From Winogradskyella sp. (GTDB lineage Bacteria > Bacteroidota > Bacteroidia > Flavobacteriales > Flavobacteriaceae): a DNA stretch of 64,000 nucleotides. The DNA is taken from positions 62,001-126,000 of the forward strand of contig JAOEWO010000002.1 of assembly GCA_028383925.1 (NCBI GenBank), written 5' to 3'. Positions 9,950 through 37,530 of this stretch are shown one piece after another. Within the stretch, counting starts at the first letter, position 1; the number at the start of each line of letters is the position of its first letter. The notes beneath the pieces were generated by a model. The model searched no databases, had not been told where the DNA came from, and was given only the letters and a program-made list of their open reading frames with translations. The translations under genes were made by a program, and so were the position numbers.

Positions 9950-9987
9950 ACACCCCTAAAGTCCCCTTAAGGGGACTTTAGGGGTGT
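9950..9987. repeat. Perfect 38-bp palindrome before dinB
   Basis: The half ACACCCCTAAAGTCCCCTT (9950-9968) is followed directly by its exact reverse complement (9969-9987). It fills nearly the whole gap between the stop of the dnaE-like gene (9997) and the ATG of dinB (9941). In the mRNA it would form a very stable stem 8 nt before the dinB start. The CCCCT/AGGGG arms are related to the hairpin at 3003 and to the ends of the DUF559 cassette in ileS. Confidence 0.9.
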
Positions 9988-33708: not shown

Positions 33709-36700
33709 ATGAGTGCAAAGTTCCCTGAATATAAAGGACTTAACTTATCAAAAGTTGCAGATGAAATCGGCAGCTATTGGGAAGTTAATAATATCTTCGA
33801 TAAAAGTGTAACTACAAGAGAAGGGAAGCCACCTTTTGTGTTTTTTGAAGGACCACCTTCTGCCAACGGTTTGCCTGGTGTACATCACGTTTTAGCACGT
33901 GCTATTAAAGACATTTTTCCACGTTATAAAACCATGAAAGGGTTTCAAGTAAAACGTAAAGCAGGTTGGGATACCCACGGTTTGCCTGTTGAGCTTGGTG
34001 TAGAGAAAGAGCTCGGTATTACCAAAGAAGATATTGGCAAAAAAATCACTGTAGAGGAGTATAACGAAGCGTGTAAAAAAGCCGTGATGCGTTACACAGA
34101 TATCTGGAACGACCTTACCCAAAAAATGGGCTACTGGGTAGATATGGAAGATCCGTATGTGACGTATAAGTCTAAATATATGGAGACGGTTTGGTGGCTG
34201 CTCAAGCAGATTTACGATAAAAATTTAATATACAAAGGTTATACAATTCAGCCTTACTCACCAAAAGCTGGTACAGGTTTAAGCTCGCACGAGTTAAACC
34301 AACCAGGTACATACCAAGATGTAACTGACACGACAGTTGTAGCGCAGTTTAAAGCAAACCAAGACTCATTGCCAGATTTTTTACAGAATGAAGGTGATAT
34401 TTATTTCATAGCTTGGACAACAACACCTTGGACGCTTCCAAGTAATACAGCCTTAACTGTTGGGCCTAAAATTGATTATGTTTTAGTAGAAACGTATAAT
34501 CAATATACCTTTAAACCAATGAATGTTATTTTGGCTAAAGCTTTAGTCAACAAACAATTTGATGGTAAATTCAAAAAGGTTGAAACCAAACCAGAATTAA
34601 TCGATTACAAAGAAGGTGATAAGAAGATACCTTTTTATGTGGTTAAAGAATTCAAAGGAAAAGATTTAGTAGGCATCACTTACGAGCAATTGTTAGATTA
34701 CGGTTGCGAATTTGAAAACAAACAAAACGCCTTTAGAGTCATTTCAGGTGACTTTGTTACCACCGAAGATGGAACCGGAATCGTACACACAGCACCAACT
34801 TTTGGCGCAGATGATGCTTTGGTTGCAAAACAAGCCACACCAGAAATTCCACCACTTTTAGTAAAAGATGACAATGGAAATTTAGTACCATTAGTAGATT
34901 TACAAGGTAAGTTTAGACCAGAATTAGGCGAATTTGCAGGCAAGTATGTTAAGAACGAATATTACAATGATGGTGAAGCACCAGAACGTTCAGTAGATGT
35001 TGAGCTTGCCATTAAATTAAAAACAGAAAATAAGGCTTTTAAAGTCGAAAAATATAAGCACAGTTACCCAAATTGCTGGCGTACTGATAAGCCTATTTTA
35101 TACTATCCATTAGATTCGTGGTTTATTAAAATCACAGACGTTAAAGGGAGAATGCACGAGTTAAACACGACGATTAATTGGAAGCCAGAATCGACTGGTA
35201 CTGGTCGTTTTGGAAACTGGTTAGCAAATGCAAACGACTGGAATTTATCACGTTCACGTTTTTGGGGAATCCCATTACCAATCTGGAGAACAGAAGATGG
35301 CAAAGAACAAATTTGTATCGGATCTGTTGCAGAATTAAAATCTGAAATGACGAAGTCTGTTGATGCCGGTATAATGTCTGAAGATATTTTTGCTGAGTTT
35401 GAAGTGGGTAATATGTCTGAAGCAAATTACGATACCATCGATTTACACAAAAATGTAGTCGATAAAATTGTATTAGTATCAGCTAGCGGAAAACCAATGC
35501 AACGCGAAAGTGATTTAATAGACGTTTGGTTTGATTCTGGCTCTATGCCTTACGCACAGTGGCATTATCCATTTGAGAATGCCCCATCTAACTTCCCCAA
35601 AGGGGAAGAAAAAGAACGTTCTTATATTTATGAAACAGCACGTAAGTTATCTTATAAGTTGTTGAATGAATTTAAAAAAGAACGTGTAAAAAATCCAACA
35701 GAAGCAGAAAAGGTACTTTGGGAAGCCTTGAGAAATAAAAATCTTGATGGTTATAAATTTAGAAGAGAACATATCATTGATGAGTTTATAGTCGATTTTG
35801 TATGCTTGTCTAAAAATTTGGTTATCGAAGTTGATGGTGGTTATCACAACCAACCAGAAGTTCAAGATGCAGATAAATTACGAACAGATATTTTAGAAGA
35901 GTTAGGATATCGAGTTGTAAGATTTACAAATGAAGAAGTTATTGGTGATATCGATAAAGTTTTAGAGAAGATAGCTTACGAATTGCGTATGAGTTTTTCC
36001 CCTTTGGGGAAACTAAAAGGGGCCTTTCCAGCTGATTTTATTGCCGAAGGTGTAGACCAAACACGTGGTTGGTTTTATACCCTTCACGCTATTGGCACGA
36101 TGGTTTTCGATTCTGTGGCTTATAAAAACGTGGTTTCAAACGGACTCGTTTTAGATAAAAACGGACAAAAAATGTCTAAGCGTTTAGGTAATGCTGTAGA
36201 TCCTTTTGAAACCTTATCAAAATACGGAGCAGATGCCACACGTTGGTATATGATTAGTAATGCGAATCCTTGGGATAATTTAAAATTTGATAGCGAAGGC
36301 ATTGCTGAGGTGAGTCGTAAATTCTTCGGAACTTTATATAACACCTATTCATTCTTCACATTATATACAAACATTGATGGTTTTAACTATAGTGAAGCAG
36401 ATATTAAATTAGAAGAACGACCAGAAATAGACCGTTGGATATTATCTGAATTAAATTCGCTTATTCAAAAAGTAGACAAATTCTATGAGGAATACGAACC
36501 AACAAGAGCAGCGAGAGCCATTTCAGACTTTACACAAGATTATTTAAGTAACTGGTTTGTACGTTTAAGCAGAAGACGTTTTTGGAAAGGAGATTACCAA
36601 ACCGATAAAATTTCGGCATACCAAACATTGTACACTTGTATGGAAACGATTGCGAAGTTAGGCGCACCAATTGCACCATTCTTTATGGACCGTTTGTACT

Positions 36701-37530
36701 TAGACCTTAATGCCGTAACCAAAAAAGAAACCTTTGAGAGTGTGCATTTAGCAGAATTTCCAAAAGTAGATACTAGCGTTATAGATAAGGTTTTAGAGCG
36801 CAAAATGGAGAGTGCGCAAACCATCTGTTCATTAGTATTATCGTTACGAGCTAAAGAGAAGATTAAAGTACGCCAGCCCTTACAAAAAATTATGATTCCG
36901 GTAGATAATCAGCAACAAAAGGAAGAAATTGAAGCCGTTGCAGATTTAATTAAGCACGAAGTAAACATAAAAGAAATTGAGCTTTTACAAGATGCTTCAG
37001 ATATATTAGTGAAGCAAATAAAACCAAATTTTAAAACCTTAGGGCCAAAATTCGGAAAAGATATGAAGCTGATTGCCAATGTGGTAAGAGAATTCAGTGC
37101 TGTTGACATTAAAAATATAGAGCAAAATGGTAATATTGATGTTGAAATTAACGGAAAAAATATTACTTTAGGTGTAGAAGATGTAGAGATTACGTCTCAA
37201 GATATTGAAGGATGGCTTGTTGCTAATGAAGGTGCGTTAACAGTAGCTTTAGATGTTACAATTAATGATGAATTGCGTAAGGAAGGTATTGCACGTGAGC
37301 TCGTAAACCGTATTCAAAATTTACGTAAAGATTCAGGATTTGAAGTAACTGACAGAATTGACGTACAATTACAAAGTAATCCCCAAATAGCAGAAGCAGT
37401 TGCTTCTAATGAAGCTTACATTAAATCTGAAACATTAACAGAAGATTTAAAAATTATGGACACTGTAAACAATGGTATAGAAATTGTATTTGATGAGGTC
37501 AACACCAAATTGTTTATTAAAAAACACTAA
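33709..37530 (+). CDS. ileS: Isoleucyl-tRNA synthetase with inserted DUF559 nuclease domain
   Basis: The 1273-residue protein charges tRNA-Ile. Synthetase signatures are the HIGH-equivalent GVHHVLA near residue 56, AGWDTHGLPVE, the CP1 editing region (about 180-500), RSRFWGIPLP, DVWFDSGSMPYAQWHY near 605-620, FPADFIAEGVDQTRGWF from about 772, and KMSKRLGN near 820. Homologs of this type are about 1130 residues; the extra 145 (about 627-771) lie between DVWFDSGS and FPADFIAEG, inside the catalytic core. They encode a DUF559/Vsr-like nuclease domain (NPTEAEKVLW, GYKFRREHII, IVDFVC, LVIEVDGGYH, VVRFTNEEV). The DNA insert is bounded by about 30-bp inverted repeats and keeps the frame. All synthetase motifs are intact, so the enzyme probably still works. 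Confidence 0.95.
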   Translation: MSAKFPEYKGLNLSKVADEIGSYWEVNNIFDKSVTTREGKPPFVFFEGPPSANGLPGVHHVLARAIKDIFPRYKTMKGFQVKRKAGWDTHGLPVELGVEKELGITKEDIGKKITVEEYNEACKKAVMRYTDIWNDLTQKMGYWVDMEDPYVTYKSKYMETVWWLLKQIYDKNLIYKGYTIQPYSPKAGTGLSSHELNQPGTYQDVTDTTVVAQFKANQDSLPDFLQNEGDIYFIAWTTTPWTLPSNTALTVGPKIDYVLVETYNQYTFKPMNVILAKALVNKQFDGKFKKVETKPELIDYKEGDKKIPFYVVKEFKGKDLVGITYEQLLDYGCEFENKQNAFRVISGDFVTTEDGTGIVHTAPTFGADDALVAKQATPEIPPLLVKDDNGNLVPLVDLQGKFRPELGEFAGKYVKNEYYNDGEAPERSVDVELAIKLKTENKAFKVEKYKHSYPNCWRTDKPILYYPLDSWFIKITDVKGRMHELNTTINWKPESTGTGRFGNWLANANDWNLSRSRFWGIPLPIWRTEDGKEQICIGSVAELKSEMTKSVDAGIMSEDIFAEFEVGNMSEANYDTIDLHKNVVDKIVLVSASGKPMQRESDLIDVWFDSGSMPYAQWHYPFENAPSNFPKGEEKERSYIYETARKLSYKLLNEFKKERVKNPTEAEKVLWEALRNKNLDGYKFRREHIIDEFIVDFVCLSKNLVIEVDGGYHNQPEVQDADKLRTDILEELGYRVVRFTNEEVIGDIDKVLEKIAYELRMSFSPLGKLKGAFPADFIAEGVDQTRGWFYTLHAIGTMVFDSVAYKNVVSNGLVLDKNGQKMSKRLGNAVDPFETLSKYGADATRWYMISNANPWDNLKFDSEGIAEVSRKFFGTLYNTYSFFTLYTNIDGFNYSEADIKLEERPEIDRWILSELNSLIQKVDKFYEEYEPTRAARAISDFTQDYLSNWFVRLSRRRFWKGDYQTDKISAYQTLYTCMETIAKLGAPIAPFFMDRLYLDLNAVTKKETFESVHLAEFPKVDTSVIDKVLERKMESAQTICSLVLSLRAKEKIKVRQPLQKIMIPVDNQQQKEEIEAVADLIKHEVNIKEIELLQDASDILVKQIKPNFKTLGPKFGKDMKLIANVVREFSAVDIKNIEQNGNIDVEINGKNITLGVEDVEITSQDIEGWLVANEGALTVALDVTINDELRKEGIARELVNRIQNLRKDSGFEVTDRIDVQLQSNPQIAEAVASNEAYIKSETLTEDLKIMDTVNNGIEIVFDEVNTKLFIKKH
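35581..35611. repeat. Left inverted repeat of the DUF559 cassette
   Basis: Starts with GCCCC and contains the palindrome CTTCCCCAAAGGGGAAG (35592-35608). It encodes APSNFPKGEE of the fused protein. Confidence 0.75.
35993..36023. repeat. Right inverted repeat of the DUF559 cassette
   Basis: Contains TTCCCCTTTGGGGAA (35997-36011), then AACTAAAAGGGGC. It is the reverse complement of the left repeat apart from about four positions, and encodes SFSPLGKLKGA. Confidence 0.75.

Follow-up and report, generated by a model that had tools for sequence, protein, structure and literature searches.

Inteins with homing endonuclease domains lie in frame in the conserved cores of essential enzymes, form site-specific lineages and show a patchy distribution, and RAYT, the enzyme of the systems built on repetitive extragenic palindromic (REP) sequences and their paired forms (REPINs), is a Y1/HUH transposase. 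Published work states that homing nucleases can enter highly conserved genes freely, being carried in self-splicing sequences, and that I-Bth0305I has long DNA-binding regions (PMC3943268), that a DUF559 gene was assigned to the EDxHD family in a 2022 paper (PMC9403480), that VsrA contains DUF559 (PMC12907096), and that the Rickettsia palindromic elements (RPEs), of about 150 bp and with an open reading frame (ORF) for a conserved peptide, are selfish palindromic DNA that has inserted, with the frame kept, into metabolic genes of unrelated kinds (PMC10969869). Here, we describe the ileS gene, encoding isoleucyl-tRNA synthetase (IleRS), of a stretch of 64,000 nucleotides from Winogradskyella sp. 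(contig JAOEWO010000002.1, positions 62,001 to 126,000 of the forward strand), hereafter the window. This gene shows in frame a DUF559 nuclease segment bounded by inverted REP-like repeats, which is probably a selfish nuclease element of the homing type that persists as a protein domain without being spliced out. None of the titles or abstract openings found in a literature search concerned DUF559 inserts in synthetases or DUF559 together with REP repeats, and absence from print is claimed no further.

The insert shares with the EDxHD homing endonucleases, such as I-Bth0305I (3r3p), a homologous catalytic fold and a spread that resembles homing, and two general features of homing elements are found: occupancy of the same site in distant hosts (21 ileS loci) and an insert history that departs from that of the host (12 close pairs of RecG, MetH and IlvA genes). 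However, the PDB entry 3r3p is named 'mobile intron protein', whereas no intron, intein or extra DNA-binding region was found in the insert, and two aligned acidic residues differ. Like inteins, it has an in-frame position in the core of an essential enzyme, site-specific lineages and a patchy distribution, but no splicing domain was found in it and it should stay in the protein. Like the RPEs, it would be selfish DNA with palindromes that lies in frame within genes of unrelated function, and it differs from them in its length (about 440 bp), its complete nuclease domain and its presence in Bacteroidota. As in REP/REPIN-RAYT systems, palindromic repeats flank a nuclease-type gene, and 32 copies of a repeat named here type A accompany the type-A DUF559 of this genome; the gene associated with the repeats is DUF559 and not a Y1/HUH transposase. 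Vsr mismatch endonuclease and free-standing DUF559 proteins (NGO0050, 3hrl; Caulobacter VsrA) have the fold class in common with the insert, but they are free-standing enzymes, whereas 77 of the 80 best named loci of this clade are inside a larger ORF (the exceptions are L291, L293 and L304). The features of the ileS locus are the following:

33709..37530, plus strand: ileS, insert-bearing isoleucyl-tRNA synthetase of 1273 aa (ORF, TIGR00392 and Pfam matches)
35581..36023, plus strand: presumed mobile unit (inverted repeat, DUF559, inverted repeat) spanning about 443 nt and codons 625-771, in place of 8 host codons that read KNLIDNKE in relatives (empty alleles, repeats, and analogy with the two-copy MetH of locus L495, which ends at its repeats)
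35578..35610, plus strand: left inverted repeat, palindrome CTTCCCCAAAGGGGAAG, forming part of the translated linker (repeat and hairpin scans; hairpin z -3.08)
35994..36026, minus strand: right inverted repeat, with palindrome TTTCCCCTTTGGGGAAA and 82% complementarity to the left repeat (repeat and hairpin scans; hairpin z -0.24)
35686..35985, plus strand: DUF559 / EDxHD-like nuclease domain, aa 660-759, with E667, D696, E707, D709, H713 and D722 (Pfam, alignment, structure model)

The stop-free ORF of 1273 codons matches the ileS profile TIGR00392 (E 1.3e-293, 976 bits, cut-off 621) and the Pfam families tRNA-synt_1, Anticodon_1 and DUF5915, and its aa 660-759 match DUF559 (PF04480; E 3.1e-33, 114.3 bits against a gathering score of 20.6). 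These matches bear out an earlier note on this DNA, made by a model from the letters alone, which had reported a DUF559 domain in an unbroken IleRS frame with its acidic residues and histidine intact; the six residues listed above are present in the window and conserved in 18 aligned occupied IleRS. The same note had placed the extra residues at 627-771: the end at 771 stands, and the start is moved by the empty alleles to 625, the foreign part being aa 625-771. Empty alleles were read at 30 loci of the genus, for example ...YPFEN-KNLIDNKE-AFPADF.... The insert shows no in-frame stop and no in-frame ATG upstream of the nuclease domain. Judged from its sequence, it presumably remains unspliced in the finished protein, and IleRS would remain active despite it. 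A structure model of the fused protein (1099 residues, 18 sequences) was discarded, with a predicted local distance difference test score (pLDDT) of 69.9, a predicted template modelling score (pTM) of 0.54 and junction stretches below 50.

The repeats that bound the insert, absent from the earlier note, are 33 nt long, inverted, 82% complementary and 383 nt apart, with one palindrome each, and the left one folds as single-stranded DNA more stably than its shuffles. The limits of the unit at these repeats are supported by analogy with L495 (genome G662), where one MetH ORF shows two in-frame DUF559 copies at different sites. The two copies, an ectopic duplicate, share 83% identity along 418 bp, the similarity beginning and stopping at the repeats, and the ends show a 26/27 inverted match. 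A hairpin scan, whose motif was picked after the repeats had been seen, covered 183 in-frame loci (at least three genomes being counted twice). Counting up to a distance of 150 nt, 118 loci are flanked by REP-like hairpins on both sides, 50 on a single side and 15 on neither, and the density is 5.66 per kb by the insert vs 0.20 per kb in the remainder of these loci. The 72 free-standing DUF559 loci show flanking hairpins on both sides in 37, on one in 15 and on neither in 20 (5.11 vs 0.40 per kb), and the 68 family loci on both sides in 35, on one in 16 and on none in 17 (3.77 per kb in 220-nt flanks vs 0.19 per kb in the rest of those loci). An earlier ungapped inverted-repeat scan, superseded by the hairpin scan, gave scores of at least 14 in 19/67 loci, vs 6/193 and 4/176 in two controls. 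The repeat sequence varies by lineage and the flanking arrangement recurs.

DUF559 is present at three places in this genome. Besides ileS, there is a threonine-dehydratase-like protein (L002/L085) to whose N-terminus the domain is fused in frame, and a short free-standing copy (L003). These two further copies both sit by eye amid REP-like repeats, L003 being unflagged by the strict hairpin scan. The genome has 32 copies of the type-A repeat, that of the dehydratase copy, with several close inverted pairs among them, and the reversed-pattern control gave 0. In the genus, at least three type-A repeats are present in 22/22 genomes with a type-A DUF559 (some copies broken) vs 14/46 without it (Mann-Whitney p 9e-8, ignoring phylogeny), which ties the repeats to the nuclease.

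PF04480 is present in 60/120 genomes of the family, 48/68 of the genus and 222/395 of the phylum, weak matches included. The tRNA synthetases that show DUF559 inside or fused, their frames having been read, are LeuRS (three sites), IleRS (two sites), ValRS and MetRS. Other hosts are RecG, HsdR, HsdM, a PglX-like methylase, RNase HI, a RecB-like helicase, MetH (three sites), HisD, HisF, HemF, a HemD-like protein, PurL, urocanase, adenine deaminase, threonine dehydratase, an M23 peptidase, MazG, DegT aminotransferases, an aldehyde dehydrogenase-MaoC protein and a methylmalonyl-CoA mutase fusion. These hosts, as annotated, are without shared function. A host family was matched by profile search in 19 of the 20 ORFs run, some below the curated cut-off, and the HemD-like ORF gave no profile match at E 1e-30; the names HsdR, HsdM, PglX-like, HemF, HemD and M23 are those we presume from motifs that we recognised. 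Among 397 family genomes, the best 47 matches to the window insert, its own included, are all in ORFs of at least 840 aa, and ileS occupancy was confirmed in three of these 47 (G000, which is this genome, G694 and G837); lower-scoring matches of the family genomes were only partly typed by host.

In the genus, 66 of 67 readable ileS sites are empty and only this genome shows the site split by the insert. With the joined host flanks as query, 64 genomes gave an unbroken full-site match and G169 an unbroken partial one, the contig-end ileS of G164 is also empty, and G155 gave no ileS match. In total, 21 loci (the window and 20 others) are occupied at the identical place, between DVWFD(S/A)G and ADxIxEGVDQTRGW, and by their record titles they belong to Flavobacteriaceae, Marinilabiliaceae, Prolixibacteraceae, Flammeovirgaceae and others. 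The first of two trees has 108 domains and was built without four short domains (including the free-standing copy of this genome) and stop-broken copies. In it, a 100/97 branch separates the internal inserts of LeuRS, MetH, RecG, IleRS and two others from the 53 free-standing domains with the IlvA and HemD fusions. A quick tree of 168 rows, with few columns and 84 open forks, from which the free-standing (except eight), IlvA, HemD and HemF rows were dropped, shows inserts grouped by host site across families, with 32 label changes against a minimum of 14 and a shuffled mean of 112.9. The window insert joins the IleRS inserts of Flavivirga and Galbibacter (SH-aLRT, the Shimodaira-Hasegawa-like approximate likelihood ratio test, 82). 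Some hosts are nested in the groups of other sites, such as urocanase L237 amid RecG inserts and PurL L263 amid IleRS inserts, as expected of jumps between genes.

Synonymous divergence of the insert was compared with that of the host gene more than 100 codons away in 297 pairs, of which 12 are close (host below 0.5; RecG, MetH and IlvA) and 285 distant; L264, L298, L258 and L248 were omitted as duplicates, although L248 is probably not one. The insert is less diverged than the host in 9 of the 12 close pairs (Fisher p 2.6e-6 to 0.04), for example 0.04 v 0.29, 0.07 v 0.31 and 0.12 v 0.38 in RecG and 0.16 v 0.48 in IlvA. The other three, RecG of G129 vs G128, G138 and G176, show far more diverged inserts (0.69-0.76) than hosts (0.33-0.42). 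The distant pairs show medians of 0.75 for the insert and 0.72 for the host, so the inserts are not intrinsically conserved at synonymous sites. In the RecG pair G270/G471 the divergence falls from 0.33-0.35 at a distance on the left to 0.10-0.16 next to the insert and 0.04 within it, and is 0.31-0.32 farther right, a tract which looks like conversion. Pooled, six RecG pairs show a V-shaped divergence around the insert, single pairs being variable, and the near/far divergence ratio of RecG is 0.80 in 18 occupied pairs (three of them involving a duplicate genome, with L264 retained) vs 1.01 in 36 empty pairs from 30 empty loci.

Probable loss is also seen in RecG, for which the genus shows 17 occupied genes, six with longer loops, 41 with an unbroken match and four not found. 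The RecG loop of G123 (GSSQSSQNETDPNEVGGAI) keeps both end peptides of RecG inserts and no nuclease, a probable scar. The RecG of this genome (L391, G000:C47:106898-109920) shows a longer in-frame loop (GKTTNSSQSSQSDVDKAFI) resembling the left end peptide, with the appearance of a scar left by a lost DUF559 insert, less clear than that of G123, and the loops of G144, G171, G160 and G161 are only suggestive of scars. MetH L289 shows two repeat-encoded peptides and no nuclease at the B12-domain site, its DUF559 being nearer the N-terminus of the same ORF, and this repeat-repeat remnant is possibly a miniature form. A Flavobacterium-like occupied recG was also observed on a contig labelled Limnohabitans (L262, a metagenome-assembled genome of Pseudomonadota), perhaps misbinned.

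Over 160 inserts, the presumed catalytic residues are near-invariant (D 160/160, E 160/160, D 157/160, H 158/158 and E 158/160). The median ratio of nonsynonymous to synonymous divergence (dN/dS) of the inserts, over 33 pairs, is 0.11 in RecG (19 pairs), 0.10 in MetH (five), 0.14 in LeuRS (three) and 0.09 in IlvA (six), values that indicate purifying selection. The domain model (pLDDT 83, pTM 0.77) shows as best structural matches NGO0050 (3hrl, template modelling (TM) score 0.89) and I-Bth0305I (3r3p, TM 0.80), both target-normalised, with E. coli Vsr at rank 16. The profile match of the domain is E 4.5e-29 to 3hrl and E 6e-7 to 3r3p, and the Foldseek match to 3r3p is E 6.4e-6. An anti-phage system was considered and rejected, PADLOC giving weak matches only, the best of them itself named 'homing endonuclease'. 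Neither phage nor plasmid was found as a vector in the collections searched: the insert protein has one distant match among phage records (37.6%) and 36 among plasmid records, each of these below 60% identity, and relatives occur in 138 stretches of viral contigs, the top one among the 80 retained of these 138 reaching 54% near a contig end and the others at most 50%.

The element would thus be a segment of about 440 bp, a small Vsr/EDxHD-type nuclease (DUF559) with inverted REP-like repeats translated as linkers, which would borrow the promoter and ribosome of the host gene and persist, with no splicing, as an extra domain in a loop that is variable among relatives. Its spread would be mainly from allele to allele in a homing-like manner, the empty allele being cut and repair copying the insert, with an occasional jump into a new gene and an occasional loss leaving an in-frame scar. 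The nuclease would presumably cut the empty site or the repeats, and this cutting would drive the spread. The suggestion of the earlier note, a selfish element at a tolerated and hard-to-lose site, intein-like without splicing, is favoured by the patchiness, the discordant histories, the discrete ends, the scar, the near-invariant catalytic residues and the unrelated hosts, its non-splicing part being read from the nucleotides.

Several results weigh against this homing reading. In 191 of the 285 distant pairs the insert has diverged more than the host, and the divergence pairs share genomes and are non-independent. A clear conversion-like tract is seen in one pair only, G270/G471; G145/G152 lacks a dip next to the insert, the effect is slight in the three MetH pairs, and the empty RecG pairs are more diverged than the occupied ones and some of them dip too. 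The IleRS label alone needs seven changes in the 168-row tree, an imperfect clustering by site, and no IleRS pair was close enough to qualify for dN/dS. The hairpin of the right ileS repeat is no better than its shuffles (z -0.24), and, apart from its two ends, the ileS-type repeat is matched at only two places in the genome, with 2 and 3 mismatches. No additional DNA-binding domain was recognised in the insert, and 3r3p shows V and N at the columns of D696 and D709, so the active sites of the insert and I-Bth0305I are not identical.

A rival reading is that the domain serves the host, which took it on and keeps it for a role on tRNA or DNA, in control of the enzyme or in defence. The strong purifying selection, the intact catalytic residues, the presence of several tRNA synthetases, RecG and restriction-modification subunits among the hosts and the weak PADLOC matches speak for it. 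We consider this unlikely: the functional tRNA- or DNA-acting domain, which the earlier note had offered as an alternative, is weakened because the hosts are unrelated (MetH, PurL, urocanase, HisD, adenine deaminase, methylmalonyl-CoA mutase), and the patchy occupancy (ileS 1/67 in the genus), the loss from RecG, the divergence of the insert departing from that of the host both ways and the name of the top PADLOC match also stand against it. A small but real probability is given to passive movement, in which the REP-like ends are mobilised by another enzyme (e.g. RAYT transposase) or by homologous recombination and the nuclease is cargo. REP-like ends are those of RAYT systems, short tracts are movable by recombination alone, and 14 of the 46 genus genomes that lack type-A DUF559 hold at least three type-A repeats; however, so do all 22 genomes that possess it, phylogeny being ignored, and the catalytic residues of 160 inserts are near-invariant.

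An old domain insertion, inherited vertically and lost many times, would explain the use of the same ileS site in several families and the single clade formed by seven occupied loci (five labelled Prolixibacteraceae and two folded in the drawing). This is very improbable, since 66 of 67 genus sites are unbroken, so that the insert is not the universal and ancient part of IleRS that the earlier note had named as a possible outcome, and the host loop is intact in the 30 read, which a simple deletion would not restore; the RecG loss left a scar, and the synonymous divergences of insert and host are discordant. Least credible of all is that the insert is spliced out as an intein or intron, or is an artefact of assembly. 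Its position in a conserved core is intein-like, but its ends are linkers encoded by the repeats, no intein family was matched in the insert-bearing IleRS (Pfam, E up to 1; NCBIfam, E up to 0.001), and positions 35300-36300 of the window gave a single sub-threshold snoRNA match among RNA families and no group I/II intron RNA. An assembly artefact appears unlikely because the 20 other loci occupied at the identical site are stop-free across the insert and include the named isolates Flavivirga rizhaonensis RZ03 and Galbibacter sp. EGI 63066 and the one-contig genome G694.

Under the homing reading, one nuclease lineage appears to invade conserved genes without splicing, via tolerant loops and recurrently across the enzymes of a phylum. 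With less assurance, we favour a broader view, a class of obligate unspliced 'domain parasites': REP-bounded nuclease segments that would home into loops of more than 20 kinds of host enzyme across Bacteroidota, become permanent domains, show an intein-like cycle of gain, loss and re-gain, and may be the source of the REP/REPIN repeats of their hosts. If true, this would be a second route for selfish DNA into essential genes and a natural catalogue of essential-enzyme loops accepting a domain of about 140 residues, would explain the DUF559 domains inside aminoacyl-tRNA synthetases, and would suggest a nuclease-based origin of REP-like repeats outside RAYT systems.

Three further observations concern the type-A repeats. 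The genus genomes G141, G173 and G130 contain 27-41 of them with no type-A DUF559 detected, possibly relic populations or repeats with an undetected source. In this genome, 15 are on one contig (G000:C10:2069-19666), beside the DUF559-dehydratase fusion, in an operon that we take by eye to be of the phenylacetate type. In the window, positions 9950-9987 show two overlapping mismatch-free type-A matches in opposite orientation, between two minus-strand ORFs.

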